The position numbers and the translations under genes are program-made. Positions 555 through 28,076 of a DNA stretch of 64,000 nt are shown here, piece by piece. Origin of the DNA: Komagataeibacter xylinus (GTDB taxonomy: Bacteria > Pseudomonadota > Alphaproteobacteria > Acetobacterales > Acetobacteraceae); NCBI RefSeq assembly GCF_004302915.1, contig NZ_QQBI01000011.1, positions 1-64,000 on the forward strand, in the 5' to 3' direction. Each line of letters begins with the position of its first letter. Within the stretch, counting starts at the first letter, position 1. The notes under the pieces were generated by a model. It did no database searches. It was not told the origin of the DNA and was given only the letters and a program-made list of their open reading frames with translations.

Positions 555-1161
555 GTGCGCCGGTTCGGCGCTGAATCGAAAGTGCGTTTCAAACGCCGGG
601 AGAACTGACGACTCCCGTCCCCACCAACCTTAGTTGAAATCGAAAGGTGACAATGAACATAGCATGGTTGGAGCAAGGCCCGAATAGCCAAGAACGGTTA
701 CGGTTTAGAGGGTCAGGGGAAGATGCATATGGTCAAGGCTATACTGCTTTAACTCCAGTTTCGGTGATGATTAACGCCATAGCAGTCATTAAACCGTTTG
801 ATACGACTGTTTCGCAAGGGAAGGGTATCATGAGGTTGCCCAGTCCGAAGCCCCTGTCTATCCGGGGATGTCAGTCTTGCGACACTGCCTCCATACGAGG
901 AATGAAACGAACAGAGGACCTAAGTGCGTCGCATCTTTCATCAGCGCAAAGCCGGGATAACCTAAACAGGCTTCCTAAACCTGCATGGTTACAGAGTCAC
1001 CATAGTAGCCAAATGCTTTCCTGTAATGGGACGGACAACCTGCGTTTAAGCAGGGCAAGACACCGTATAAGGTACGAGCGATCGCACCGAAAGCGTCAGG
1101 TCTTGGGTGAAGGGTGGCAGCTCCCAAAACAGTATCCTCTAACGGAAGACGGGTTCTGCTG

Positions 1162-3021
1162 ATGCAAACTGCTATCGTCATGAAGAGATTGGATACTCTT
1201 CCAAAGCTCTCGAAAGCCGGAAAGTCGATTAACGGCCTATTCCGCCTCATGACCTGCCGTGATCTCTGGAAAGCGGCATATGAGAAGGTTGCCCAAAACT
1301 CGGGCTCCCTGACCCCCGGTATTGACGGAGATACGCTTGACGGGTTTTCGCTCGACAAGCTTGAAGCGTTGATTAGCGAGGTCGTGGAAGGACGTTACCG
1401 ACCAAATCCGGTTCGTCGGGTCTACATACCAAAATCAAACGGTAAACTCCGACCGTTGGGGATTCCGAGTATTCGGGATCGCCTCGTGCAGGAAACTTTG
1501 AGGACGATCCTTGAAACCATATATGAGCCGATTTTCTCTAATCACTCACATGGGTTTCGTCCAAATAGGTCCTGTCATACTGCACTGGAGCATATCCAGA
1601 AGGTGTGGAGAGGGACAAAATGGTTCGTTGAGGTCGATATTGTTGGGTATTTTGACAATATCGACCACGACATTCTCGTGAACCTGCTTCGCAAGAGGAT
1701 TGCTGATAAGAAGATCATTGATCTGATTAGACGCTTTCTTGAAGCTGGATATCTTGAAAACTGGAGGTTCAGCAGGACTTACAGTGGAACTCCGCAAGGT
1801 GGCATTGTCTCGCCCATTTTGGCCAACATCTATCTTCATGAACTCGATTTGTTCATGGAAACATGGATGGAGGCTAAAAATAAGGGCGTGAAACGTCGCC
1901 GGGAGCAAGAATGGAATCGTCTTTCGAAGTTGATCAATTACAGACAGATGCAAATTCGTCGGATCGTACGATCAGAAGAAAGTCTGTCAGTAGGAGATCA
2001 GGGCAGGATAGCGGCTCTCAAACAGGATATAAAAGTCCTCGATAAGGCTCGCAAATCTGTGCCTGCGCTGGCATCACAGGATCCGGATTATCGGCGCTTT
2101 CGTTATGTCCGGTATGCTGATGATTTCCTCATTGGTGTTATCGGCAGCAAAGATGATGCCCGGAGAATGATGGATGCCGTTCGACAATTTCTTGGAAACC
2201 TGAAACTTAATGTATCTGAGGAAAAGAGCGGCATTCGACATGCCTCGGACGGAGTAGAATTTCTTGGCTATGACATCCATACTTGGAATTCAAACCAGGT
2301 AAGGAGCGTGAGGGACACTCTGGGGCGCAACTACACGAAGCGTAATCCAGACGGTCTGATCACGTTGAATGTTCCGCGGACGAAAATCCGCCAGTTCTGT
2401 CAACGCCACGGTTACGGTTACCCCGACACGCGTTGGGGTATTGACCGACCGGCATTGATCAATTCGAGCGAGTACGAGATCGCTTCACAGTTCAATGCGG
2501 AATACCGCGGGTTTGTTCAATATTACGCGCTGTGCGTGAATGTGAAAGCGCAGCTTCGTTCGCTTCAGTTCGTAGTACAGACAAGCCTTCTCAAGACACT
2601 TGCCAATAAGCGACATAGCTCGTTGGCCAAGGTTTTGACTTCCGTCCGTAATAGGGATGGAGAGTGGTATGTGGCTAGCCGAGACTTAGGTGGGAAATTA
2701 AGGAGGGTGCGGGTATGGAAGCTTCGGCATCTCACTCGTCCGTCCGTGAAATTCGCCAAGGTCGACGCACTACCAAGATACATTGCGGCTTTTGCTCGCA
2801 CGGACTTGGTAGATCGACTGTTTTCTGAAGAATGTGCGCTTTGCGGAACATCAAATGTTCCGGTTGAAGTGCATCACGTCAGAAAGCTGAAAGATCACGT
2901 CAACTCGCCTTTGATGGCACAGGTCAGAGCTGCTCGCCAAAGGAAGCGTATCCCGCTCTGCATAAATTGCCATCGCAATGTCCATGCTGGGCGGCAACGT
3001 GATCTTCGAATGAGAGCGTAA
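1162..3021 (+). CDS. ltrA: Group II intron reverse transcriptase/maturase with HNH endonuclease
   Basis: Multifunctional intron protein of 619 residues that binds the unspliced RNA, helps it splice and copies it into DNA at a new target. In order: RT fingers with TPGIDG and IPKSNGKLRPLGIP, a palm with FVEVDIVGYFDNI and TPQGGIVSPILANIY, the catalytic RYVRYADDF motif, a maturase (X) region, and a C-terminal HNH-type zinc nuclease with CALCG, HH and CINCH. All key residues are present, so it should be active in both splicing and homing. I chose ATG 1162 because intron proteins of this class commonly begin MQTA; an in-frame ATG at 1114 would add 16 residues from the ribozyme part. Confidence 0.93.
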   Translation: MQTAIVMKRLDTLPKLSKAGKSINGLFRLMTCRDLWKAAYEKVAQNSGSLTPGIDGDTLDGFSLDKLEALISEVVEGRYRPNPVRRVYIPKSNGKLRPLGIPSIRDRLVQETLRTILETIYEPIFSNHSHGFRPNRSCHTALEHIQKVWRGTKWFVEVDIVGYFDNIDHDILVNLLRKRIADKKIIDLIRRFLEAGYLENWRFSRTYSGTPQGGIVSPILANIYLHELDLFMETWMEAKNKGVKRRREQEWNRLSKLINYRQMQIRRIVRSEESLSVGDQGRIAALKQDIKVLDKARKSVPALASQDPDYRRFRYVRYADDFLIGVIGSKDDARRMMDAVRQFLGNLKLNVSEEKSGIRHASDGVEFLGYDIHTWNSNQVRSVRDTLGRNYTKRNPDGLITLNVPRTKIRQFCQRHGYGYPDTRWGIDRPALINSSEYEIASQFNAEYRGFVQYYALCVNVKAQLRSLQFVVQTSLLKTLANKRHSSLAKVLTSVRNRDGEWYVASRDLGGKLRRVRVWKLRHLTRPSVKFAKVDALPRYIAAFARTDLVDRLFSEECALCGTSNVPVEVHHVRKLKDHVNSPLMAQVRAARQRKRIPLCINCHRNVHAGRQRDLRMRA

Positions 3022-3032
3022 TCGGGGGTGGA

Positions 3033-3066
3033 AAGCCGTGTGCAGTGAAAGCTGCCCGCACGGTTT
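3033..3066 (+). ncRNA. Group II intron domain V
   Basis: A 34-base hairpin carrying the catalytic AGC triad (3034-3036), a GAAA tetraloop (3047-3050) and a two-base bulge on the 3' side. It begins 12 bases after the maturase stop and is followed by the domain VI stem. This is the catalytic heart of the ribozyme and appears intact. Confidence 0.85.
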
Positions 3067-3116
3067 GGAGGGGGACGTGGCATTTGCTCTCTGAGCGGTG
3101 TCCACGTCTACCCTAT

Positions 3117-3640: not shown

Positions 3641-4111
3641 ATGACTGAGAACTTCGAACGAAGCTTTGCGGAGCATGCAGAGCGGTTACTTCGCCATGAA
3701 AGAGCATGCAATGAAGCTTCAGCGCAAAATCGCAGGATCATCTTTGAAACGCTTTCGGTATCCAGGATTACAGCCGTTACAGTGTCGTTTGACGGTGAAG
3801 GAGATAGCGGCCAGATCGAGGAGATTGCTGTTGTACCTGAAGGGGAGGATTCACGGCTCGACGTCCTTGTCGATGCGGTGACGGCGAGGTGGACTGATTG
3901 CGAGATTGTCTCGGAACGTACTCCCCTGCGGGATGTCATCGAACAGGTCTGTTACGCCGCATTGGCCGAGACCAACGGTGGTTGGGAAAACAATGAGGGT
4001 GCTTTTGGCGACTTCAGGTTTGACGTGGCCAACAGAACGCTGACGCTCGAATTTAACGGACGATATATGTCCACTGAATATTCCGAGCATAGCTGGACAG
4101 AGGAGGCCTGA
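3641..4111 (+). CDS. DUF6878-like plasmid protein
   Basis: Protein of 156 residues. N-terminal half (1-60) is helical and charged; the C-terminal half contains GDFRFDVANRTLTLEFNGRY, a strand-rich signature I associate with DUF6878 proteins of alphaproteobacterial plasmids. Function unknown. ATG 3641 is preceded by gaggga at a good distance; the frame is open further upstream to 3482 but that part reads like non-coding sequence. It is followed after one base by the DUF6915-like gene, so the two are probably co-transcribed. Confidence 0.65.
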   Translation: MTENFERSFAEHAERLLRHERACNEASAQNRRIIFETLSVSRITAVTVSFDGEGDSGQIEEIAVVPEGEDSRLDVLVDAVTARWTDCEIVSERTPLRDVIEQVCYAALAETNGGWENNEGAFGDFRFDVANRTLTLEFNGRYMSTEYSEHSWTEEA

Positions 4112-5378: not shown

Positions 5379-6278
5379 ATGGCCAGAACTGAACGTACCG
5401 ACATCCACCAGTGCGTCACTGACCGCATCATCCGCGAACTTGAAGCGGGAACCGTGCCATGGGTCTGCCCGTGGAGCCGCACGAAATGCGGCATTGCCCT
5501 GCCGCGTAATGCCGCGACCGACCGGGCCTATTCCGGGATCAACATCCTGATGCTGTGGGGTTCGGTAGAGATGCAGGGGTTTTGTACCCAGAAATGGCTG
5601 ACGTTCCGCCAGGCGCATGCGCAGGGCGGCAATGTCAGGAAAGGCGAGAAGGGAACGACGGTATTTTATGCCGACCGTTTCACGCCAAAATCGGAAGCAG
5701 GTTCCGACGAGCCACGCCAGATCCCGTTTCTAAAGCGGTTTACGGTGTTCAATGTTGACCAGTGCGAGAACCTGCCGGAGAGCATGGTCGCGCCGACCGC
5801 GCCGTTGCCGGAACGCGAAATCGTGCCGCACGCGGAAGCGCTGATGCGCGAAACCGGGGCGGACATCCGTATCGGCGGCGATAAGGCATTTTATGCCCCG
5901 GATGCGGACTTCATCCGGGTTCCGCCCCAGCAGTCCTATTTCAACCAGATCGACTGGTACAGAACCGTCTTTCATGAGATCGGGCATTGGACCGGGGCTG
6001 AAAGCCGACTGTCGCGCACCTTTGGCAGGCGGTTCGGGGACCATGCCTACGCAGCCGAGGAACTGGTCGCAGAGATGACATCTGCTTTCGTATGCGCGGA
6101 ACTGCAGATCGAGCCGACTGTCCGCCATGCGGATTACATCGGGAACTGGCTGGAACTGCTGAAGGCTGACAAGCGCGCCATTTTCACTGCAGCGAGCGCA
6201 GCTTCATCTGCGGCCCAATACATTTTCGGCTCATCGACACGTCAGCCGTCCATCGAGGACGTGGCGTCTGCCGCCTGA
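5379..6278 (+). CDS. ardC: ArdC-like antirestriction protein
   Basis: Protein of 299 residues. The N-terminal part (about 1-125) is the ssDNA-binding ArdC domain with PWxxPW-like text (VPWVCPW), YSGINILML and ARKGEKG-like NVRKGEKGTTVFYADRF. The C-terminal part is a zincin-type metallopeptidase domain with FHEIGHWTG (HExxH) and a downstream glutamate in YAAEELVAEM. ArdC proteins bind single-stranded DNA and protect incoming plasmid DNA from restriction. ATG 5379 follows a ggag site. The gene is complete and follows the small membrane protein and structured element A, a typical leading-region position. Confidence 0.88.
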   Translation: MARTERTDIHQCVTDRIIRELEAGTVPWVCPWSRTKCGIALPRNAATDRAYSGINILMLWGSVEMQGFCTQKWLTFRQAHAQGGNVRKGEKGTTVFYADRFTPKSEAGSDEPRQIPFLKRFTVFNVDQCENLPESMVAPTAPLPEREIVPHAEALMRETGADIRIGGDKAFYAPDADFIRVPPQQSYFNQIDWYRTVFHEIGHWTGAESRLSRTFGRRFGDHAYAAEELVAEMTSAFVCAELQIEPTVRHADYIGNWLELLKADKRAIFTAASAASSAAQYIFGSSTRQPSIEDVASAA

Positions 6279-7105: not shown

Positions 7106-7608
7106 CGGCGGGGCCGATCCTGTGCGAGCGGCTTCGGATCCCGCCTTTCGACCCGGCTGTCCTGAAATCCACCCAATGGGCGACGGTCCAGCAAAAGGCA
7201 AAGCTTGGTAATGCGATCCTGCGGTTCATCGCACTCGGAATGCCTGCAGAAAAATTTACCCCGGCCCTATATAACCGTCTGTGCAATATGTTCGGATTTA
7301 TCGCGCATTATAATCGGACCGGCTTCGCGCAGACATGGTTCGACAATGCAGCCACACGGCGCGATTTCCTCGATCAGGTTGCACGATATCCCTGCTGGGG
7401 CGACCCGACTTTTGTCTGGTCGGATGTAGAGAAGGAAATCAGGCTGCGCGTTCGGGAAAACCTGCTGGTCGAGGCATGGACGACCCGTGCCCGCGAGGAA
7501 CAGGTTGCGCGCGAGAAAGCGGAGTTGGCCCGTCTGCAGGCAAAGCATGGCGGAACAGCGACGGCAGCGGATGCATCCGTGCCCACCGTGCAACTCGGGC
7601 TGCTCTAG
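7102..7608 (+). CDS. Hypothetical leading-region protein
   Basis: Protein of 168 residues. The middle is aromatic and helical (LYNRLCNMFGFIAHYNRTGF, TWFDNAATRRDFLDQVARYP), the C-terminal third is a charged helix (REEQVAREKAELARLQAKHG) followed by a short tail. No family recognised. I prefer ATG 7102, which overlaps the upstream stop as ATGA; ATG 7084 would add six residues. The 3' end overlaps the convergent gene on the other strand by four bases. Confidence 0.6.
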   Translation: MTAGPILCERLRIPPFDPAVLKSTQWATVQQKAKLGNAILRFIALGMPAEKFTPALYNRLCNMFGFIAHYNRTGFAQTWFDNAATRRDFLDQVARYPCWGDPTFVWSDVEKEIRLRVRENLLVEAWTTRAREEQVAREKAELARLQAKHGGTATAADASVPTVQLGLL

Positions 7609-8117
7609 CCCTGGGCCATGTGCCAGGAGCCATGCCCGTCGAGGCACCGGCCCAGGAACGCCAGTGCGGCACGCGGATATTTCCGGATTTCCAGAACGCT
7701 GCCGGTGGGTACTTCCATGTGGTAGGCGCCGATCTGGGTGGCGCAATGCGGCTGGCCGCGCAGGAATTTTATGCCCCTGCCGGTGCGAACTGCCTGCCGT
7801 GGACCAAAAACGCCGACAACGTGACGGCCCCCGAGGTAAATATCGGCGTTGAACTGGCGCCACAGCGGTGCCCGGACATCCTGCTCATCCACTTCGACCT
7901 GCACGGTGCAGCAGTCATTCCATGCAGATGGCGTGCCATCCACACCATACAGGGTCTGGCAGAGCTGGCGGATCGCCGGCGCATGTTCGGGCAGGAAGGA
8001 CCAGCCGATTTCCTTGCCGAGAAAACGTCCCCTGTAACGCCGGGCCTGGATTGCCAGTTCGGGATGAAAGTCGGCCTTCAGGATGATGCGTCCTTCCGAC
8101 GCAGTAATCACCGCCAT
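7605..8117 (-). CDS. Hypothetical protein
   Basis: Protein of 170 residues encoded against the surrounding genes. Its first part (IILKADFHPELAIQARRYRGRFLGKEIGWSF) has the pattern seen in HARP-like strand-helix modules, where a measured position is compared with a rebuilt surface, but the resemblance is weak and I do not assign it. A gggag site precedes ATG 8117. Convergent with the trio at 6336-7608 and divergent from ssb, with structured element B between. Confidence 0.55.
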   Translation of the reverse strand: MAVITASEGRIILKADFHPELAIQARRYRGRFLGKEIGWSFLPEHAPAIRQLCQTLYGVDGTPSAWNDCCTVQVEVDEQDVRAPLWRQFNADIYLGGRHVVGVFGPRQAVRTGRGIKFLRGQPHCATQIGAYHMEVPTGSVLEIRKYPRAALAFLGRCLDGHGSWHMAQG

Positions 8118-8254
8118 GATGAACTCCCAATGTAGAGACAGGGAAATTCTAGGACGACTATCATAATTGTACAAGAATAAATGACACGATTATGAGCGAA
8201 ATAGAAAAATAAAACAGAAATAAAAATTCAAAATCCAAAAGCATGACCTCGGCC

Positions 8255-8443
8255 CCTGCCGGGTCTCTGACCTGGTTTTTGCGGTCTGAAGCGGTCGTCG
8301 TCGGGCGCAACCCCCAGGCCTGCGGTCGGGACGGCACCGTGAAGCCGCATGCGCGGCTTCCGCACCACTGCCGCCCCGAGGGGTTGCGCCCACCGCCTGA
8401 GGCCCGCTTCCGCGCGACCGCACCAGGTCAGAGATCCGGCAGG
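8255..8443. repeat. Structured element B: long branched inverted repeat upstream of ssb
   Basis: A nested set of complementary arms: 8255-8276 with 8422-8443 (22 positions, all pairing if one G-T is allowed); 8281-8286 with 8416-8421 (GCGGTC/GACCGC); 8288-8294 with 8404-8410 (GAAGCGG/CCGCTTC); 8303-8314 with 8380-8391 (GGGCGCAACCCC and its complement, 12 of 12); and an apical GAAGCCGC/GCGGCTTC at 8341-8348/8353-8360 with a four-base loop. It ends 38 bases before the ssb start and is preceded by an AT-rich run (8160-8240). Too large for a terminator. Confidence 0.85.
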
Positions 8444-8481: not shown

Positions 8482-8952
8482 ATGAGCCAGTCAGTCAATC
8501 GCGCCATCATCATCGGTCACCTGGGCAGGGATCCGGATCTTGCCGCACGCAGGGAAGGGGAGGGCAAAATCGCATCCTTCGGCGTGGCGACAAGCGAAAC
8601 CTGGACCGATCGCGCTAGCGGTGAGCGCCGGGAAAAAACCCAGTGGCACCGTGTCGTCTCTTTCAACGATCACCTTTCAGCCGTGATCGAACGTCGGTGC
8701 CAGAAGGGAACGCTGGTCTATGTCGAAGGTCATCTCGAGACACGCAAATGGACCGATCAGCAGGGACAGGATCGTTATGTGACCGAGATCATCATTGATC
8801 GGTTTGATGGAAACCTGAAGGTGCTGGCCAATGGTCGAAGCACGGGCGATGGACGTTTTGATGAAGATCGCCCGTCGCGGAGTACTGCACAGCGCCCGGC
8901 CCCTGCCACAACTTCCAGCGCGCAGGACGTGGATGACGAAATCCCGTTTTAG
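8482..8952 (+). CDS. ssb: Single-stranded DNA-binding protein
   Basis: SSB of 156 residues. The OB-fold (about 1-112) begins SVNRAIIIGHLGRDPD and includes WHRVVSFN and VYVEGHLETRKWTDQQGQ. A short Pro/Ser/Thr-rich linker leads to the conserved acidic tip DDEIPF, which recruits replication and repair partners. Plasmid-borne SSBs coat the entering transfer strand and dampen the SOS response. ATG 8482 follows an aaggaac-type site. The long structured element B immediately upstream is likely to govern its expression. Confidence 0.95.
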   Translation: MSQSVNRAIIIGHLGRDPDLAARREGEGKIASFGVATSETWTDRASGERREKTQWHRVVSFNDHLSAVIERRCQKGTLVYVEGHLETRKWTDQQGQDRYVTEIIIDRFDGNLKVLANGRSTGDGRFDEDRPSRSTAQRPAPATTSSAQDVDDEIPF

Positions 8953-9532: not shown

Positions 9533-10729
9533 ATGGCTTACACGTCTTCCCCAGAGGCACAGCAAAGAGAACTTGATGAGCTTCGCAATGCCGTAAACTG
9601 CGCCGTTGTGCTGGAGAAAGCCGGGTTCCGGCTGGATCGGCAGGCCACCGCGCAGCGTTCCGCCCGTAACCTAAAATTTCGCCGTGACAGTGAGGCCATT
9701 ATTGTCAATCACGATGGCAAGGGCTGGTGGGACCCCAAGGGCGACGGCAAGGGCGATGTCTTCAAGCTTGTCCAGTATCTCGATCCCTCGAAGAACCTCG
9801 GTCATGTCAGGCAGGAACTTCGCGCCCTGATCGGCAGGAGCCCGACGCTCGAAGTTGTCGAGCGTACGAAGGGAGCCGCTGACAGACCGCGGCGCGATCC
9901 CGCTGAACTGTGGAACCGTCGCGCCGCACCCGGGCAGGGGACGGCTGCATGGTGCTATCTGACGGAGATCCGTGGGTTGCCCGAGCATATTGTCGCGATT
10001 GCTGGACAGCAGGGGGCGCTGAAGGAAGGCCCGCACGGAACCGCCTGGTTCGGCCACCGGGATGCGGACGGGCAGTTCACCGGCATGGAAATGCGGGGGC
10101 CGGATTACAAGGGGTTTTCGACGGGCGGGGTTGGCAAGCGTCTCTTCGGTTTCCGGGCCGACGGGGGAGAAGAACCGGTGACGCGCCTTGTCGTCACCGA
10201 GGCGGCCATTGATGCACTGTCCTTTGCTGCACTTGATCGCTTTCCGAAGGGAACGCTCTATACCTCGACAGGGGGCGGCATGAGCCCAGAGAGCGAAGCG
10301 AACCTGAAACGGGTCATGATGCAGGTCGCCGCCCAGCCTGAAGCGCGACTGGTTGTCGCCGTTGATAACGACATGCAGGGGGATCGTTATGCCGGGAAAT
10401 TCGCTGCGATGGCACAGGACGTCGGTCTCTGGTCAGGACGGATATCTCCGAAGGGGCCGGGAGAGGACTGGAATGCGGTCCTGAGGACCCGCAGGGAAGG
10501 AATGCAGGCAGGTTTCGTTCCTGGTGCGCTCTGCCGCCTGTCCGAAGTCCTGGGTTCGGGGTCGAAAGCGCAGCCGGAGACGGTTTCCCCGTCATGGCTG
10601 GGTCAGGCCGAGGCGCACGGCACGCAGCGGCCGCCGCGGGTTTCGGACGCCTCATTGCCTGCTCCGTCTGAACCTGTCGGGAAGCCTGCCGCACCACGGC
10701 CAGGTTCATCGCCGGGGCTGTCCTTGTGA
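9533..10729 (+). CDS. DUF3991 and Toprim domain protein (plasmid primase-like)
   Basis: Protein of 398 residues. The N-terminal part (about 1-115) contains RNLKFRRDSEAIIVNHDGKGWWDPKGDGKGDVFKLV-type text, a zinc-less CHC2-like recognition module. Then DUF3991 (YLTEIRGLPEHIV) and a Toprim domain with VVTEAAIDALSFAAL (catalytic glutamate) and LVVAVDNDMQGDRYAGKF (DxD). This family is thought to relate to DnaG/TraC primases and could prime the second strand after transfer. An aaggag site precedes ATG 9533. The tail after about 330 is Pro/Ser-rich and probably disordered. Confidence 0.82.
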   Translation: MAYTSSPEAQQRELDELRNAVNCAVVLEKAGFRLDRQATAQRSARNLKFRRDSEAIIVNHDGKGWWDPKGDGKGDVFKLVQYLDPSKNLGHVRQELRALIGRSPTLEVVERTKGAADRPRRDPAELWNRRAAPGQGTAAWCYLTEIRGLPEHIVAIAGQQGALKEGPHGTAWFGHRDADGQFTGMEMRGPDYKGFSTGGVGKRLFGFRADGGEEPVTRLVVTEAAIDALSFAALDRFPKGTLYTSTGGGMSPESEANLKRVMMQVAAQPEARLVVAVDNDMQGDRYAGKFAAMAQDVGLWSGRISPKGPGEDWNAVLRTRREGMQAGFVPGALCRLSEVLGSGSKAQPETVSPSWLGQAEAHGTQRPPRVSDASLPAPSEPVGKPAAPRPGSSPGLSL

Positions 10730-11370
10730 ACCAGCGTAAATCCTTTGGGCTCACCGGGCAGACGGCATCGCGGGCTGCAGGCTTTGTCCGGACATATGCG
10801 GGCCTGAGTGCATGCGCGAATAGCCCTGCCGCCAAGGGCGACGGATATGCGGAAATAGGTGGCGCGTCGATTGCGGGGCAACGCGCGGCCTCGATGGCTC
10901 GAGGCGGTGACTTGGCAGGCCGCATCGCCTCCTTCGCCGACGATCACGGGATGATCGTCATTTACGGCTGGCGTGCCACAGAGGTGGGCGCCGAACGGTC
11001 CTGCGCGCAGGATCATCTCACACAGGAGAAGGTCATGGGATCTGTTTCAGACTATGCAGATCGGGGGATCGCGCGTCTGGCGATGAAGGCAGACCTTTCA
11101 CGGACGTTTACCCGGTCGCCCCTGGCCCAGACCATCTGGAACCGCCATCTGCGCCAGCGCCTGACGTGGGCAGCAAATGATCCCCCGATACCGCAAAGTG
11201 CAGTCCGCCTGTACGAGCGGCCGGGCTGTCCTGTCGGCCTGGTTATCGATGGACGCTGGGAACGCGGGCTTGGGAACTGGGATCTTTCCTATCCGGCGAC
11301 GATCCTGCTCTCGACCGGTAAGATCACCACGACCCCGGGTTGCATGGCGGAAGGGCTGGAAGAGCTATGA
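10726..11370 (+). CDS. Hypothetical protein between Toprim and helicase genes
   Basis: The frame runs 214 residues from GTG 10726, overlapping the Toprim stop. The C-terminal part from ATG 11035 (111 residues, preceded by aggagaagg) is the best supported: MGSVSDYADRGIARLAMKAD, then RLTWAANDPPIPQSAVRLYE and a C-terminal strand. The first 100 residues may be genuine or may be a non-coding spacer. No family recognised. The stop overlaps the helicase start as ATGA, so this gene is coupled to the helicase. Confidence 0.55.
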   Translation: MNQRKSFGLTGQTASRAAGFVRTYAGLSACANSPAAKGDGYAEIGGASIAGQRAASMARGGDLAGRIASFADDHGMIVIYGWRATEVGAERSCAQDHLTQEKVMGSVSDYADRGIARLAMKADLSRTFTRSPLAQTIWNRHLRQRLTWAANDPPIPQSAVRLYERPGCPVGLVIDGRWERGLGNWDLSYPATILLSTGKITTTPGCMAEGLEEL

Positions 11371-13418
11371 CCGGTAATCTTCCCGTTCCGCGTGCGCTTG
11401 CGCCAGTCCTTGATAGCCTGACGCCAGAACAGCGGCGCGCGGCAATGGCACTGGGATATGTTCTGGTTCTGGCAGGGGCAGGCACCGGCAAGACCAAAAC
11501 TCTGACAGCCGGGGTCGCAACCCGCGTCGAACTGCATGGCATGGTTCCTGGCCAGATCCTCTGTGTAACCTTTACTAACAAGGCCGCCCAGGAAATGCGT
11601 AAGCGCATCGGAGACGTTCTTGGGCCGTACTCGGTACCCACATGGCTTGGAACGTTTCATGCCCTGGCTGCCCGACAGCTACGGGCCGAGCCTGAAGTGG
11701 CGCAATTGCGTAGCGGCTTTGACATTCGTGACGCCGAGGACAGTCTCGCCATTGTCCGCCGCCTGATCAGGACTGTCCCGAAGGAAAAGCTTCCCGTGCC
11801 GCAGGAAGGAGCGCCAGGAGATGCGAGACAGATTAAAAAAATGGCCGAGCGGATTGCGCGGCTGAAAGAGGATCTGATCACACCGGTGGCTGCTTTCGCG
11901 CATGTTGAAAGCCTGATCGGCAGGCGACAGTCGGCGAATCTCCATGTGGATCACGAAAGCTGGCGCTTTGTCGTCGGGTTGTATGGTCGTTACCAGGCGA
12001 TCTTGCGCGAGCAGAACGCGGCGGATTTTGGTGATCTGCTGATGTGGCCGATCCTCGCGATGCTGCATGATGCGGCATACCATCGCCGGTGGTCCGCCCG
12101 TTTTACGGCCGTGATGGCGGACGAGTTTCAGGATGTGAACCGCGCCCAGTACCTGTGGCTCACGTTGCTTAGCAGGACGTCTGGTGAACTGTTCTGCGTG
12201 GGTGATGATTCCCAGAGCATCTATTCCTGGCGCGGGGCGAAAGTCGGCTTCCTGCGAAACTTCCCGCATGAGTTTCCTGATGCGAAGATGTTCAAGCTGG
12301 AGGAGAACTTCCGTTCCACCCGCCATATTCTTGATGCGTCGAATGCGGTGATTTCATTTGACCCGTCGCGGATCGAAAAGACACTGTTCACACGTCGGGG
12401 CGAGGGCTTCCCGATCGAGGTGCTGGGGTTCTCCTACGCCACCGAGGAAGCTGCGGCGATCACCCGGGAGATTGGCCGCCGCGCGGCGACCGGCGTCGCC
12501 TGGCATGACATGGCTATCATTTACCGCCAGAACAGGCTCTCCCGAACGCTGGAGGAAGCACTGCTCCACGCTCGCATTCCGTACGAGATCATCGGGGATG
12601 TGGGTTTCTATCAGCGTACTGCCGTCAAGGATGCTCTGGCCCTGCTGACGCTTTGCGCATGGCCTGATGAGCGCAGGTCGGATGAAGCTTTTCGGCGGAT
12701 GGCCAACCGGCTCCCGCGGGGCCTTGGCGCCAGGGGCCCGGGGAAAATCGAGATGGAGGCTTCGGCGGGTGGTCTGTCGCTATGCGCGGCGGCTACACGG
12801 ACCCGGCTGCCCCCGAGATGTGCCGTGGCGCTGCAGGGATTCGTCCAGATCCTCAGACAGATCGGATGTCGGGAAGGGGAAAGCCTTGGGGAGCGCCTTA
12901 CCGGCCTGCTCAAGGCAACAGGGTATCTGGACATGCTGCGGGCTGATGATTCGGATGAAGCGGCAACCCAGCGGGAGAACCTCGCGGAACTGATCGAACT
13001 GGCCCAAGGTTTCCGGCGCGCGGAACACCTGCTGGAGCACGCGGCACTGGCAGGCGGAGCACCTGGCGAAAAAGGTCGTGATCGCGTTCAGCTCATGACC
13101 ATGCACCGGTCGAAAGGACTGGAATTCCGGCACGTCTTTCTTCCTGCGTGGGAAGAGGCGATTTTCCCCGGTGCGATGTCGCGCAATCCCGAAGAGGAGC
13201 GTCGCCTTGCCTATGTGGCGCTGACCCGGGCTATGGAGCAGGCCACGATCACGTTCTGTGATTATCGCCAGGGCGGATCTTCCCGTCCGAGCCGGTTCAT
13301 TGACGAAATTCCACTCGAGAACCGGGTCAGCAGCTGGAATCACGGCAGGAACGAACCACGCCAGTCTGACGGTCGTTGGAGGCAGGTTGATCAGGAACTG
13401 AATGCGCTTGGCTTGTGA
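11367..13418 (+). CDS. UvrD/Rep-family superfamily 1 DNA helicase
   Basis: ATP-dependent 3'-5' DNA helicase of 683 residues. Visible motifs: Q-motif region LTPEQRRAA, Walker A GAGTGKTKT, motif Ia CVTFTNKAAQEMRKRI, GTFHALA, Walker B VMADEFQDVNRAQY, motif III GDDSQSIYSWRGA, motif IV ENFRSTRHIL, motif V MTMHRSKGLEFRHVF and motif VI RRLAYVALTRAM. All catalytic residues are present. It is near the normal UvrD length without an extra nuclease domain. Start ATG 11367 overlaps the upstream stop. It may help unwind or repair incoming plasmid DNA; the pairing with a NERD protein nearby is suggestive. Confidence 0.9.
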   Translation: MTGNLPVPRALAPVLDSLTPEQRRAAMALGYVLVLAGAGTGKTKTLTAGVATRVELHGMVPGQILCVTFTNKAAQEMRKRIGDVLGPYSVPTWLGTFHALAARQLRAEPEVAQLRSGFDIRDAEDSLAIVRRLIRTVPKEKLPVPQEGAPGDARQIKKMAERIARLKEDLITPVAAFAHVESLIGRRQSANLHVDHESWRFVVGLYGRYQAILREQNAADFGDLLMWPILAMLHDAAYHRRWSARFTAVMADEFQDVNRAQYLWLTLLSRTSGELFCVGDDSQSIYSWRGAKVGFLRNFPHEFPDAKMFKLEENFRSTRHILDASNAVISFDPSRIEKTLFTRRGEGFPIEVLGFSYATEEAAAITREIGRRAATGVAWHDMAIIYRQNRLSRTLEEALLHARIPYEIIGDVGFYQRTAVKDALALLTLCAWPDERRSDEAFRRMANRLPRGLGARGPGKIEMEASAGGLSLCAAATRTRLPPRCAVALQGFVQILRQIGCREGESLGERLTGLLKATGYLDMLRADDSDEAATQRENLAELIELAQGFRRAEHLLEHAALAGGAPGEKGRDRVQLMTMHRSKGLEFRHVFLPAWEEAIFPGAMSRNPEEERRLAYVALTRAMEQATITFCDYRQGGSSRPSRFIDEIPLENRVSSWNHGRNEPRQSDGRWRQVDQELNALGL

Positions 13419-17292: not shown

Positions 17293-17973
17293 ATGTCCAA
17301 CGCTACCAACACAATGACCGCCGCCCTTGCTTCCGCGCAAGAGAAGAAAGCCGCCAGCAAGGCAAAATCGGGCCAGAAGGCCCCCGCCGCCCGCCGCTTC
17401 GAGGAAGCGGCCCGGCGCGCGCCTGTCATCACCATCGAGGCCGCCGAAGCCCTGATCCCCGTTCCCGACCAGATCACCAAGATCGTTTCCCATTTCGGCC
17501 TTGAGGACTTCGACGCCGACGCCCTCGCGGAAACGGCCCGGCAGGCTTTCACCGTCATCGCCCGCAGCCTCTCGCCCGTGCTGGTCGTGACCACATGGAA
17601 CGGCGAGCAGAACGACAAGGGGCTGGAAATGCACCTCCAGCGCATGGCTGGCGCCGCTGTCGCGTCCGCCTTCGGGGCCGCCCAGTTCTATGACGCCAAG
17701 CGCGCGCAGGCCCGCGAACTGTCCTCACAGTTCAACGAATATCGCGAAGAGGACCGGTTGGGCGTCGACGGGCTGGAAAACAGGGCGGCCAACGCCCGCC
17801 GCTTCGCAGCCGAGCAAGGAATCAAGGCCGCCGCTCTGGTCGCATCCGCCCGCGGGGCCCTTGCCGCCTACGAGGACATGATCGGCACCCCGTGGAAGCC
17901 CTACACGGCCAGCAACGCCCGTACCATCGACCAGCGGGCCGCAGCCGCCGAGATGGACGCCCTCGGCTTCTGA
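17293..17973 (+). CDS. Hypothetical alanine-rich protein
   Basis: Protein of 226 residues, rich in Ala and helical throughout. Basic N-terminus (QEKKAASKAKSGQKAPAARR), then a region around DQITKIVSHFGLEDFDADAL and a long helical C-terminal half without membrane segments. No family recognised. ATG 17293 lies after an aaagg site. Codon use is strongly GC-biased at third positions, like its neighbour at 18044 and more so than the T4SS genes. Flanked by structured elements C and D. Confidence 0.65.
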   Translation: MSNATNTMTAALASAQEKKAASKAKSGQKAPAARRFEEAARRAPVITIEAAEALIPVPDQITKIVSHFGLEDFDADALAETARQAFTVIARSLSPVLVVTTWNGEQNDKGLEMHLQRMAGAAVASAFGAAQFYDAKRAQARELSSQFNEYREEDRLGVDGLENRAANARRFAAEQGIKAAALVASARGALAAYEDMIGTPWKPYTASNARTIDQRAAAAEMDALGF

Positions 17974-21952: not shown

Positions 21953-22290
21953 TTCCGTCACGTCGTTTCTCCTGCAGGCCGTGTCAGTGGCTGTACCAGT
22001 GTGAGGTAATCGCTGCGTGGACGTCGGGTGGCGCATTTTTGGTCCCGGTACGAACCCTTTATGAACCACCACTGGACCCATTTCAACGACGTCTTGGCAC
22101 CTGCCCGGGGTGGGACCGGTACCACCTTTGGAACCGGGTCGGACCCGGCCTGATAGAGGCTCTTCATACACCATTGCACCGTTGGTGCGGGACGTTCCGT
22201 AGCGACGATCTGAGGCCGAAAAAAAGATATAAAGTAATCTTTGCGCCCTTGGGGTGAGTATAGCGATCTGATAGAATAAACCGCTTTGTG
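21953..22290. promoter_or_regulatory. Control region with clustered palindromes
   Basis: No gene. The stretch is dense in GGTACC/GGGACC/GGACCC-type half sites. Clear inverted repeats: CCGGGTC-G-GACCCGG (22134-22148), GCACC-gtt-GGTGC (22176-22188), and GGTGG..CCACC around GGTACC (about 22110-22127). It lies between the accessory operon and the MNT/HEPN pair, so it can hold two divergent promoters plus binding sites for the 194-residue protein. The GCACC-n-GGTGC hairpin followed by G/T-rich sequence also looks like the nic-proximal hairpin of R388-type origins. Confidence 0.5.
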
Positions 22291-24112: not shown

Positions 24113-24561
24113 CACGCCGGCTGCCGAGAATCTGAATCTTATCCGGACAACAGGCTCTGTTCACGTAATAAGACATGGTGATCATCGTTGACCAAGTTGG
24201 GCATGGCTTCCCCATCTTTTTGGCAGGGGAAGCATTGGGTTGTCGATGTAGCAAGTGACATCTTATGACTACTGCCTAAACACGACGTTCGGACGGAGCC
24301 ATTACCGCGTGAACGTCGCGGGGAATCAGTTCGTCAGACAAACCCGTGGTGTCACCTTGGTAGCGTCGACAAGTGCGGGATCCGTCTGGATGCGGCAGGT
24401 GCAGGTCGTAACCCGGGAGCACATGTTGATTTGCTGTTCCGGCCTGCGCAAAAGTCACCTTTTGCGCAGGCGCGGGCAATGAAAGATGCCTCGGGCAGAA
24501 GAAAATCAGTAAAGTCGCGTGATGCTACGTCACACTTTCCCATGTTCTGACGTGGGATGCG
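24113..24561. promoter_or_regulatory. oriT: Candidate oriT region upstream of the relaxase
   Basis: About 450 bases without a supported gene. Two clear inverted repeats: GCTTCCCC/GGGGAAGC (24206-24213/24226-24233, 12-base loop) and a perfect 13-base repeat GCCTGCGCAAAAG/CTTTTGCGCAGGC (24442-24454/24459-24471, four-base loop TCAC). Such repeats close to a MobF relaxase gene are the usual make-up of an origin of transfer. No nic consensus for this relaxase branch can be read off, so the call is tentative; the palindromes at 22134-22188 are the rival candidate. Confidence 0.45.
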
Positions 24562-24858
24562 ATGAAGATGAGCGAGACAACCGGGAGGCAAGGCACATTC
24601 CCAATCCGGGGCGACGACCTGTGGGAACGGCTGCGGGCGATTGAGGACAAATTGTCACTGATCATTGAACTCCTCTCGCCGGAAGATTCCGACGGGCCCA
24701 CGCTTGATGAGATTCTCGGCCGATTGGTAACCTTGATCGCAGCCCAGAACCCGATGCTCAGACGTATTGATCTTACAACCGGCAGGTTGTTCGACATTCA
24801 GGAGGGGGGGACGCCCCGCTCCGCCCGGCCCGACGATGAGGATGGAGCCGATGCCTGA
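24562..24858 (+). CDS. Small acidic protein preceding the relaxase
   Basis: Protein of 98 residues with a long central helix (LWERLRAIEDKLSLIIELL, EILGRLVTLIAAQ) likely to form a coiled coil, and an acidic end (RPDDEDGADA). The stop overlaps the relaxase start by one base. By position it may be an auxiliary relaxosome protein. No family recognised; ATG 24568 is an alternative start. Confidence 0.55.
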   Translation: MKMSETTGRQGTFPIRGDDLWERLRAIEDKLSLIIELLSPEDSDGPTLDEILGRLVTLIAAQNPMLRRIDLTTGRLFDIQEGGTPRSARPDDEDGADA

Positions 24859-27800
24859 TGATGACGTTCCGGAAAATCTCCGCTGAGAGCAGCGGTCGCC
24901 TGATCACTGCCTATTTCACGCAGGAACTGCCAGATCCAGAGCACGATTTCCGTACCCAGCCCGGAAAAGTGCTTGACGCGGATGGTGGCCGACTGACCAG
25001 CTATTATACCGGTCGTGATGGGCGGGCCTCGTGGCGACCGGACATGCAGCCCAAGATTGCGGCAGCTCTTGGCATTGATCCCAGAACACCACCGAAGAAC
25101 GCGCAACTCAATCGTCTGTTTGAAGCAAAAAGGGCCGATAATGGCGAGGACTGGTCAAGGAACGCCCGCAAGATCAGTGCCTATGATCTGACCCTGGCAC
25201 CACACAAATCGGTGACTCTCGCGGCCGAGTTCGCGCCGACCGAGGCCGAGAGGGCAACCATCTGGCACGCTATTGATCGGGCAAACGACGCCACCATGCT
25301 CTATGTCGCGCGGGAAATCGGCTTCGCGCGGCGCGGTCATGGGGGCGAAGGTGGAGCCGACCCGGGCGAGGTCGCCTGGGTGTCATTCCGGCATGATACC
25401 GCGCGCCCGACGGTCGAGGCGCGTGACGCGCGGACAGGCCAGACCTATTTGATCGACACGCCAGCAGGCGGTGATCCCCATGCCCATATCCATAACGCCC
25501 TGTTCAATGTCGTGGTCACGGAAGAGGGGCATGTGGGTTCACTCGACACGAAGCGGCTGCGATCGCGCGTTCACGAATTTGGAGCATATTTCCAGGCACA
25601 GCTCGCTGATGAACTGCGCCGGATCGGCATCGCCCAGCAATACGATGCGAATGAACAGGCGACGGTCATCTCGGCCGTGCCACAGGATATATCGGATTTC
25701 TTCAGCAAGGGACGACGCAACGTCATCAGGGCGGCCAAGGAGTACGCCGCGGCGGAAGGAACGGACTGGGCGCATATGCCGATCGAACGCAAGCGCCGCA
25801 TCCTGTCCATGGCCGGCCTGGCAGCCCGGCTCGACAAGGACAAAGGCACGAGCGACCATGAGATATGGCGAGAACAGGCCAAGCGTCTTGGCTGGGAGGA
25901 AAAAAGCCTGCTTGGCACGCCAGTAGCGCCTGTGGGCACCAGGGAACAACGATACGATATTGCCTACCGTTTCGCTGCGCGCCATCTCGCGAGGGAGTTT
26001 GAAACAGCCGCCGTGATCGATCACGACAAGCTCAGAACGTATGCGGCCCGGGGCCTGATCGGCACCGGCATCGAGGGTGGGGTGAAGGACATTGATCATG
26101 TCGTGGCCCTTATTGAACAGCGTGGTCTTGAACTCGGCGGGGAACGGGTCTCGCTGATTCAGGAGATGCGCGGCGACAGGCTGAGGGTGACGAATTCCGC
26201 GCAGATCGCCATCGAGGAGAACCTCGCGATTCAGGCTGCTCGTGCATCAGGAGACCGAAGCGGGGCGCTGTCGGACCGCCAGATCACAGAAGCCATTGGA
26301 CGATCGCCCCTCGACTTCGCAAGCGAGCATGGAAAGACGCAGAAGGCTGCGATTTACGCTCTCGGCAGGGGTGGTGCGCTCTCCATGCTCACCGGCGTTG
26401 CGGGCGCCGGGAAGACGGCCCTCCTGTCTCCGCTGGTTGATGCGTGGAAACATGATATGCGTTATGACACGAACGGTCGCAGGGTTCTCGGGATTGCCAA
26501 TGCCTGGCGTCAGGCGGACGCATTACGTGAGGCCGGCATCTTTGACACAAGCGCGATGCTGCCCTTTCTGGCGCGGCTGGAGCGCGGTGACGTCGATGTG
26601 GACCGGAATACGGTGCTGGTGATTGACGAAGTCGGTCAGGTCGGCCCGCGCCAGATGCTTCGCCTGTTACAGTTGCAGCGCGATACTGGCTGCACGATCA
26701 AGGCGCTGGGTGACCATGAGCAGGCGCAGAATATCGAGGCAGGGGACGCCATTGAGATGCTGCGCCGGGTCCTGGATCCAGAAGATATGCCTGAGCTTCT
26801 GTCCAGTGTCCGGCAGGTATCTGCAAGAAATCGCCAGATTGCCGACATGTTTCGTGGCGCAGAGCCGGAAGAGAGCGATCTGGAAGCTCACGAGTTCAGG
26901 GGGGCTGCGGCCAACGCACATACGGACGAGGAAAATGATGACGACGTCCGTAACAGGTTCCATCTGAAGGAAGTCCGGGATGCGATCGATATGAAACGGG
27001 CGGATGGAACGATCCGTCTGGTCGGTGGCGACCATGAGGAAGTCCTGCAGGATATTGCCCGGCTGTATGTGACGCGTCGCGATACCCTGGTCGCCGAGGG
27101 TGCCGGTTTGCGGCGAGGCCGGGCCAAGACGATCAGCATGTCAGCGCTGACCAATCAGGATGCTGCCGACCTGAGTCGTGCCGTCCGTAAAATCCTGCAG
27201 GAGCGCGGCGAGATCTCGACGCATGAAATCACCGTGCAGGCTATTGATCAGCGTGGCGAAACCTATGATCTCGCGATCGCGACGGGCGACCGGCTTCGGC
27301 TGTATCGTCGGACATGGGGCAGCGTGGACGGAAAGGGCGCCACGGTCGGAAATAACGGCGATGTGGTGGAAGTTCTGGCTCATGGCGATGCAGGGCTTCG
27401 CGTCCGCACGAAGGACGGGCTTGTTGCCGATGTCGAATGGCGGCGGTTTTGTGATGCGAGGACAGGTCGGGTAATGCTGGGGTTCGGACATGCCATGACG
27501 ATTGATGCCGCACAGGGGCTTACTTCAGACGAGCACATCAACGCCCTGCCGCGAGGCGTTGAACTGGCGACGGGATTTACCTCATACGTCGCGGAAAGCC
27601 GGGCGCGTGGAACCACATGGACCATGATCTCCGATGGCGCGACGTTTGAGGCGGTCCGGAACCAGAGGCCGCTCGGGGATACGACGCCCATCACCAGTGA
27701 CGACCTCTGGAATCATGTCGCAAAGAAAATGGCGCATAAACCATATAAATCATTGGGCACGGATCTGGTTGCCCGAACCCGCAAGGCCCGGGATGCGAGG

Positions 27801-28076
27801 ATCCGGGAACTGATCGCGCTTGGGCGCACGCAGGAGACACTGATGAAGTCAGGTCGCCCATATGGCAGGGAGATTATTCTGGAGACCCAGGCGCGTCTGG
27901 CCGAGCGCTTGCATAAGGCGCGTCTGGCCGAGATCGACGCCAGGCTGCAGGTCATGATCAGGAACGCACCAGCGGTCATGACGGGTGCGGAGCAGATGCT
28001 TCGGAGCCAACGGGCCGCTCAGGTGCTGGGCAGGCGTCCCCATGTGCCATCTGCGTCGCCAGGCGCCGCCAGCTAG
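24858..28076 (+). CDS. MobF (TrwC/TraI-type) relaxase-helicase
   Basis: Protein of 1072 residues that should nick oriT, stay bound to the 5' end and unwind the plasmid. The relaxase domain (about 1-330) has candidate catalytic tyrosines in TAYFTQ (near 19) and TSYYTG (near 49) and the metal-binding triad in GDPHAHIHNALFN (near 207). The helicase part has Walker A GVAGAGKTALL (near 513), Walker B VLVIDEVGQVGPRQM and a UvrD/RecD-like motif with FGHAMTIDAAQGLTSDEHI near the end. Length fits the family. Starts ATG ATG; the first overlaps the upstream stop. A MobF relaxase next to an IncI-type (MPF_I) channel is an unusual pairing, as IncI plasmids use MobP. Confidence 0.92.
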   Translation: MMTFRKISAESSGRLITAYFTQELPDPEHDFRTQPGKVLDADGGRLTSYYTGRDGRASWRPDMQPKIAAALGIDPRTPPKNAQLNRLFEAKRADNGEDWSRNARKISAYDLTLAPHKSVTLAAEFAPTEAERATIWHAIDRANDATMLYVAREIGFARRGHGGEGGADPGEVAWVSFRHDTARPTVEARDARTGQTYLIDTPAGGDPHAHIHNALFNVVVTEEGHVGSLDTKRLRSRVHEFGAYFQAQLADELRRIGIAQQYDANEQATVISAVPQDISDFFSKGRRNVIRAAKEYAAAEGTDWAHMPIERKRRILSMAGLAARLDKDKGTSDHEIWREQAKRLGWEEKSLLGTPVAPVGTREQRYDIAYRFAARHLAREFETAAVIDHDKLRTYAARGLIGTGIEGGVKDIDHVVALIEQRGLELGGERVSLIQEMRGDRLRVTNSAQIAIEENLAIQAARASGDRSGALSDRQITEAIGRSPLDFASEHGKTQKAAIYALGRGGALSMLTGVAGAGKTALLSPLVDAWKHDMRYDTNGRRVLGIANAWRQADALREAGIFDTSAMLPFLARLERGDVDVDRNTVLVIDEVGQVGPRQMLRLLQLQRDTGCTIKALGDHEQAQNIEAGDAIEMLRRVLDPEDMPELLSSVRQVSARNRQIADMFRGAEPEESDLEAHEFRGAAANAHTDEENDDDVRNRFHLKEVRDAIDMKRADGTIRLVGGDHEEVLQDIARLYVTRRDTLVAEGAGLRRGRAKTISMSALTNQDAADLSRAVRKILQERGEISTHEITVQAIDQRGETYDLAIATGDRLRLYRRTWGSVDGKGATVGNNGDVVEVLAHGDAGLRVRTKDGLVADVEWRRFCDARTGRVMLGFGHAMTIDAAQGLTSDEHINALPRGVELATGFTSYVAESRARGTTWTMISDGATFEAVRNQRPLGDTTPITSDDLWNHVAKKMAHKPYKSLGTDLVARTRKARDARIRELIALGRTQETLMKSGRPYGREIILETQARLAERLHKARLAEIDARLQVMIRNAPAVMTGAEQMLRSQRAAQVLGRRPHVPSASPGAAS

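Follow-up and report, generated by a model that had tools for sequence, protein, structure and literature searches.

Genes and features of the locus

The window, meaning the whole 64 kb stretch of DNA analysed here, carries on its plus strand a gene for a plasmid single-stranded DNA-binding protein (ssb, 8482..8952; PF00436, E 3e-28), and directly before it lies one long nested hairpin of 189 bases (8255-8443), referred to below as the element, which stops 38 bases short of the ssb start codon at 8482. An ArdC-type anti-restriction protein is encoded upstream (5379..6278, plus strand; PF08401 and PF18818), and genes for a DUF3991/Toprim protein (9536..10729), a UvrD-like helicase (11340..13418) and a MOBF relaxase (24858..28076; PF08751 TrwC, E 1e-41) follow ssb on the same strand. 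The genes for ssb and ArdC and most of their neighbours point to the relaxase, and between ssb and the relaxase, 13.7 kb from the hairpin, a nic-like motif is found at 22164..22188 on the lower strand, in which the hairpin GCACC-AAC-GGTGC is followed by AATGGTGT/ATG; it is presumed to be the oriT, with the lower strand as the nicked strand. The ArdC, ssb, Toprim and helicase genes are directed towards the nic motif and the relaxase, which gives the neighbourhood the look of a leading region. The next gene upstream of the hairpin in Komagataeibacter is divergently oriented (7605-8174 on the minus strand of the window). A short way upstream of the leading genes a group II intron is present (Rfam Intron_gpII, 3031-3116), and the ORF at 1114-3021 resembles, by eye, a group II intron reverse transcriptase/maturase.

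Architecture of the hairpin

The original prediction described a nested hairpin before ssb with closing arms that include one G-T and a perfect 12-base inner arm, and both the hairpin and these arms were recovered when the folds of the two strands were computed, the fold being significant on RNA as well as on DNA. As RNA, the upper strand of the hairpin folds at -129.2 kcal/mol (z -8.8), and as DNA the lower strand, which is the template of ssb, folds at -79 kcal/mol (z -10.6); 0/200 shuffles were as good in each case. In a scan of upper-strand RNA folds over 190 bases, no other part of the 64 kb window departs as far from its GC-based expectation as the hairpin does (z -4.5, with the next at -3.6).

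The closing helix P1 is formed by 8255..8275 and 8423-8443, which pair throughout with the one G-T, and in relatives its sequence is variable with the pairing retained. It is separated from P2 by a T-rich bulge (8276..8279), where either T8276 or T8280 is able to pair with A8422; in relatives this bulge appears, by eye from the sequences, to hold about 4 nt of variable sequence. The 5' arms of P2 (8280-8286) and P3 (8288-8294) together span 8280..8294 around a conserved unpaired T at 8287, and their 3' arms (P3 at 8404-8410, P2 at 8416-8422) span 8404..8422 with a 5-nt loop (8411-8415) between them. The P4 5' arm (8303..8314) makes a perfect 12 bp helix in the window with its partner at 8380-8391, and inside it lies an inner core at 8318..8375, GCCTGCGGT..GACGGCACCGTGAAGC..GCTTCCGCACCACTGCCG, which shows the best sequence conservation in many copies, though not all, as the core is missing or swapped in some and some interiors are quite different. 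The best-kept parts are P2 (TGCGGTC/GACCGCA), P3 with its conserved T opposite the 5-nt loop, and the P1/P2 bulge of about 4 nt; the CCGCACC loop letters of the inner core are conserved in many copies. The possibility that the inner CCGCAC loop competes with P2 as a switch was considered and rejected, as a change of P2 to GTGGTC/GACCAC is not matched by the inner loop.

The size of the hairpin and its conserved internal bulges rule out a terminator or simple operator, as the original prediction had held on size, and there is no terminator-like site. A coding explanation was also set aside: overlapping ORFs are present, but the length of the element varies and pairing is kept rather than frame. 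No covariance model in Rfam matched the hairpin, even at E up to 10 (4227 families, with STAXI and radC expected among them).

Homologues and taxonomic range

A blastn search of 72,556 plasmids gave 17 element-bearing records, all from Acetobacteraceae, and the annotation around the element was read in 9 of these. Nine Komagataeibacter and Novacetimonas records have an annotated ssb under the blastn match, and ssb is also the next gene in the four Acetobacter records examined, where the A. sp. AC2005 gene lacks annotation and seems to be frameshifted; behind the match in Lichenicola NZ_CP053709 the next gene is a different one, not ssb. One record, NZ_CP021525 (L005, ~4001-4070), carries a natural deletion derivative that has lost its inner core together with the P2 and P3 3' arms, with ssb intact behind it.

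In a DNA search of 397 genomes of the family, matches were obtained in 38, many of them confined to the core at 8318-8375 and some of the weakest being due to chance. A covariance model, R1, was built from 19 diverse copies, with a short calibration that makes its E-values rough. R1 finds the element in 39/397 Acetobacteraceae genomes from 16/102 genera, and among 385 genomes of the class Alphaproteobacteria only in that of the window itself, both searches having been run with stricter filters that drop weak matches, so that divergent copies outside the family could escape. Three R1 matches are weak (E 0.0045 to 0.08), and two Roseomonas mucosa plasmids have a diverged copy whose outer arms are the same (E 0.0045 and 0.033). 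When the GTDB genome collection was scanned for the pattern, 50 stretches were obtained, and R1 confirms 37 of them, all from Acetobacteraceae or from vaguely labelled MAGs (Proteobacteria, Alphaproteobacteria, Rhodospirillales); the 13 that R1 leaves unconfirmed come from Chloroflexi, Gemmatimonadales, Streptomyces, Kitasatospora, Nocardia, Brucella, Novosphingobium and others. The same kind of scan in viral contigs gave two stretches, and R1 confirms neither.

Within the family the element does not accompany every plasmid ssb. Of eight other plasmid ssb upstream regions, six are without it (Kozakia, Gluconobacter, two from Acetobacter, K. saccharivorans plasmid 3 and Mesorhizobium), and it is absent from five of the seven Acetobacteraceae plasmid ssb genes examined. 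The Kozakia ssb (L103) and the second ssb of the same plasmid in Acetobacter tropicalis (L107) have a different, AT-rich leader. The conserved element was found only in Acetobacteraceae in the searches that were run, and the alphaproteobacterial range proposed originally has to be narrowed to this family among the Alphaproteobacteria sampled.

Covariation of the paired arms

The covarying homologues upstream of ssb on related plasmids that the original prediction looked to were found, and their covariation is strong. Across 48 aligned copies, 47 of them distinct, pairing holds in 91.0% of cells (92.9% in P2 and 96.4% in P3) compared to 75.7% after shuffling, two-sided changes occur in 29/36 pairs, and double-change cells number 203 against 19-65 in controls with slid partners; a second alignment of 37 copies that includes the most divergent ones gives two-sided changes in 30/36 pairs, and both alignments were fitted to the R1 model and are thereby biased towards the structure. 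RNAalifold was run on 32 copies aligned with MAFFT and not fitted to the model, and here double changes are present in 16/26 pairs. Judged from these sequence comparisons, the pairing of the element is under selection.

Genes behind the element

A total of 103 oriented copies were pooled, and 54 were left once near-identical ones had been removed. Of these, 30 lead to ssb, 19 to members of a single uncharacterised protein family, three to contig ends and two elsewhere, one of the latter (L101) having an ssb-like frame further downstream. The spacing is close to constant: the best-scoring start codon lies 48-64 nt after the modelled element in 48/49 genes, with distances of 48-59 nt for ssb (30/30) and 50-64 nt for the second family in 18/19; for the remaining gene the score fell on a GTG in frame at +12. 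Two copies occur together on eight contigs or plasmids, and in seven of them one copy leads to ssb and the other to the second family: an Acidisoma silvae contig (L112, L156), L139, L140, L142, L143, L157 and Lichenicola NZ_CP053709. In the eighth case, L094 (G288:C8), the two copies are about 8.8 kb apart and each leads to ssb.

Proteins of the second family are about 191-204 aa in length (~195), as exemplified by the member at L140:1692-2264. Neither Pfam nor NCBIfam gives a match for them, and their PHROG matches are insignificant; the predicted fold is all-helical (pLDDT 79.6), with no PDB match below E 1. The window holds a homologue at 17293..17973 on the plus strand, with 42% identity to the reference member, and the R1 model detects no element before it. 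The position of the second family behind the element points to it as a likely establishment factor.

Which strand folds

Where one strand has a G.T wobble the other has an A.C mismatch, and the type of mismatch that is tolerated therefore names the folding strand. Read on the upper strand, the stems contain 38 A.C cells compared to 9 G.T cells over 34 of the 36 pairs, the other two having been left out beforehand as they are unpaired in one subgroup. Parsimony on the element tree gives 22 events from paired to A.C and 6 to G.T (p 0.004), and as the copies are related, neither these events nor the concordances given below are independent of one another. In P2, P3 and P6, a subset picked afterwards, the events divide into 14 A.C and 1 G.T (p 0.001), and in P4 into 8 and 2. 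The stem columns are balanced in their base composition (C 1111, G 1081, T 399, A 397), and the other mismatches on the upper strand lean more mildly in the same direction, with C.T in 28 cells and G.A in 16. Cytosine deamination of an exposed transferred strand was rejected as the source of A.C, as 27/38 cells are nearest to an A-T pair and would be T to C changes; the remaining 11/38 are nearest to a G-C pair, with G to A.

Folding energies were compared with DNA parameters and dinucleotide shuffles in 30 non-redundant copies kept from 56. The lower strand is more stable in 30/30 copies, by a mean of 9.2 kcal/mol compared to 3.8 kcal/mol in shuffles, and its excess stability goes beyond the mean of its own shuffles in 29/30. 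More G.T pairs are predicted on the lower strand (119) than on the upper (47), the lower having more in 23 copies, equal numbers in 3 and fewer in 4. The control set consisted of the 30 best-scoring RNase P RNA loci from 60 Acetobacteraceae genomes, in which the sense strand is more stable in 30/30, and beyond shuffles in 21/30 (p 0.004), with a small margin (mean 8.7 compared to 6.8 kcal/mol in shuffles). As a single further control, a known single-strand promoter region, that upstream of ssb in the F plasmid, leans the same way, though not clearly, with its template strand more stable by only 6.6 kcal/mol against 3.3 +/- 2.7 in shuffles and the G.T pairs running the opposite way, 2 on the upper strand and 0 on the lower. 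Mismatch types and folding energies together suggest the lower strand, which serves ssb as template, as the one that folds and is selected, although this comparison is blind to DNA versus RNA, as an RNA of the lower strand would give the same asymmetry.

The nic-like motif and the transferred strand

The motif is presumed to be the oriT from its resemblance to a known substrate, being close in form to that of the R388 relaxase TrwC, which is printed in PMC4176350 as GCGCACCGAAAGGTGCGTATTGTCT/ATAG. With a lax limit, blastn finds the motif in 68 to 77 plasmid records, and in the set of 68 there are 63 with Acetobacteraceae genus names and 25 typed as mobilizable. As the motif is common to dozens of Acetobacteraceae plasmids, small ones typed as mobilizable included, the same relaxase may mobilise small motif-bearing plasmids in trans.

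Among the element-bearing records, the motif was located in 16/17, and in 16/16 of these it lies on the opposite strand from the gene that the element leads to, five of the 16 matches being weak (E 0.009 to 0.4); in A. sp. AC2005 it was not among the matches listed. It lies about 7 to 39 kb downstream in 14/16 records, a placement like that in the window, and farther away in NZ_CP015169 (56 kb) and in NZ_CP021525 (about 220 kb, assuming a circular record). Given that the motif lies on the lower strand and that this arrangement recurs in all 16, the strand that is transferred is probably the folding lower one. Relaxase gene and element-led gene share a strand in 16/17 records; in the exception, NZ_CP021468, the relaxase gene is on the other strand, with the relation of motif and ssb kept. 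Relaxases are described as typically located in the lagging region in a 2024 survey in Nature (PMC11541004). A 13-bp perfect inverted repeat at 24442-24471 was rejected as the oriT, as it was not found in the relaxase regions of five other genera. This repeat lies upstream of the relaxase accessory gene, and the K. saccharivorans copy has one change.

Proposed function and alternatives

It is proposed that the leading region enters the recipient single-stranded, whereupon the lower strand, the template of ssb, would fold into the hairpin and serve as a single-strand promoter; ssb would then be transcribed immediately, its transcription ending once the second strand has been made. In relatives, the second gene with its own copy of the element would likewise be transcribed early. 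Under such a scheme the fold would form in the cell and the hairpin would recruit RNA polymerase, which would have to be loaded differently, perhaps via the paired bulges, or else another protein would be recruited. A sigma-70 consensus scan of the duplex sequence of the window copy alone found no -35/-10 boxes inside the hairpin. It gave four sigma-70-like matches, two per strand, all in the AT-rich stretch upstream (8135-8210), and an ordinary promoter there could therefore read through the hairpin. On the predicted fold, the covariation, the lower-strand bias, the near-constant spacing and the orientation to the nic motif, the element is read as a conserved sequence acting in cis, in the form of folded single-stranded DNA of the transferred strand, and most likely as a single-strand promoter, with the balance tipping modestly in favour of this account. 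More tentatively, and with confidence that falls somewhat short of even, the element may represent a second class of single-strand promoter that evolved independently, in which a nested GC-rich hairpin would be recognised by its bulges in place of -35/-10 boxes and would serve ssb and its partner gene in the conjugative plasmids of Acetobacteraceae.

A hairpin of single-stranded DNA on the lower strand could have another job and no promoter activity, such as a site for priming of the complementary strand or for docking of a plasmid or host protein. The same lower-strand evidence would apply to it, promoter boxes are absent from the hairpin, and a DUF3991/Toprim gene lies just downstream of ssb in the window and in the Komagataeibacter, Novacetimonas and Acetobacter records read; it is nevertheless thought unlikely, though deserving of attention, as neither priming nor docking requires that two unrelated genes have their start codons at a nearly fixed distance, and no DUF3991/Toprim protein is annotated in the 34 kb around the two copies of the Lichenicola plasmid. 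The element could otherwise be a structured 5' leader of the ssb mRNA, for example one that senses SSB, transcribed from the AT-rich promoter region upstream, where the two plus-strand promoter-like sites would suit it, as would the near-constant spacing to the start codon and the high stability of the RNA. However, such a leader should tolerate G.U on the upper strand, yet A.C exceeds G.T there (22:6 events, 38:9 cells), the upper strand is the less stable in 30/30 copies with RNase P in the same family showing the opposite sign, and the element also stands before a gene family other than ssb. The SSB-sensing leader raised in the original prediction is accordingly disfavoured and seems improbable, and a single-strand promoter fits better in view of the covarying homologues, the folding of the lower strand and the leading-region look.

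The wobble asymmetry suits RNA from the lower strand as well as it suits DNA, and a non-coding RNA antisense to the ssb leader and with the same fold would be expected to show it. Its promoter would have to lie in or near the short, variable stretch between the hairpin and the start codon, but both minus-strand promoter-like matches are beyond the hairpin and read away from it, and there is no Rfam match; an antisense RNA is given a low probability. The long palindromic arms could also be taken as the dyad symmetry of a double-stranded operator or of a cruciform, but a duplex site gives no reason for the asymmetry between the strands or for the conserved one-sided bulges and loops, making this very improbable.

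Relation to known single-stranded and structured elements

The preferred reading, of a single-strand promoter, has its precedent in Frpo of the F plasmid, which is described as driving early expression of ssb (PMC9849209, PMC11541004); early expression from the incoming single strand is reported as shown for F, where Frpo mimics an ordinary promoter and two copies lie about 5 kb apart, one before ssb (PMC9849209). In the F sequence the region before ssb recurs 5.4 kb on with 89% identity. Like the element, Frpo1 and Frpo2 (ssi) of F and its relatives are long hairpins before ssb in the leading region, with the gene directed toward oriT; the transferred strand is the template in both, inferred here from the nic-like motif, and F has two copies, as do the eight contigs or plasmids above. 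The element differs in having several nested conserved bulges and no boxes in the hairpin, in being found only in Acetobacteraceae, and in that its promoter role is putative. The R1 model applied to 17 kb of the F leading region gave a best E of 1.4, away from the Frpo regions, and blastn of the element showed no relation to Frpo, with matches in Acetobacteraceae plasmids only. The original notion of an Frpo equivalent thus gains from the covariation, the lower-strand fold and the leading-region neighbourhood and loses from the lack of any sequence relation to Frpo and of -35/-10 boxes.

If the promoter activity is real, it would be that of a single-strand promoter in a bacterial family, and with an architecture, for which none is recorded in the sources searched. 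As the element is unrelated to Frpo and lacks promoter boxes but shares its position, strand and pairing with genes, the single-strand strategy would, if the reading is true, have arisen more than once, with RNA polymerase or another enzyme loading onto single-stranded DNA in another way. The element probably marks the leading region and the transferred strand in a plasmid family of vinegar- and cellulose-producing bacteria.

No description of such an element was found in Rfam or in the open-licence literature searched. The radC motif has DNA-handling genes in its neighbourhood, and the element is set apart from it by the lack of an Rfam match at E up to 10. That motif is described as a structured element of Proteobacteria, and STAXI, in the same work (Weinberg 2010, PMC2864571), as a conserved structure near ssb, antirestriction, topoisomerase and integrase genes, for which single-stranded DNA was weighed as the acting form and RNA thought likelier. 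In that description STAXI has a pseudoknot, 2-3 repeats and frequent UUCG loops, whereas the element is one nested hairpin with a bias to the template strand. TrwC-type oriT hairpins are described as folded single-stranded DNA with a strand preference (PMC4176350). The element differs from these, and from attC, in standing before genes at near-constant spacing, with the nic region 13.7 kb off. Integron attC sites also act as folded single-stranded DNA with a preference for one strand.
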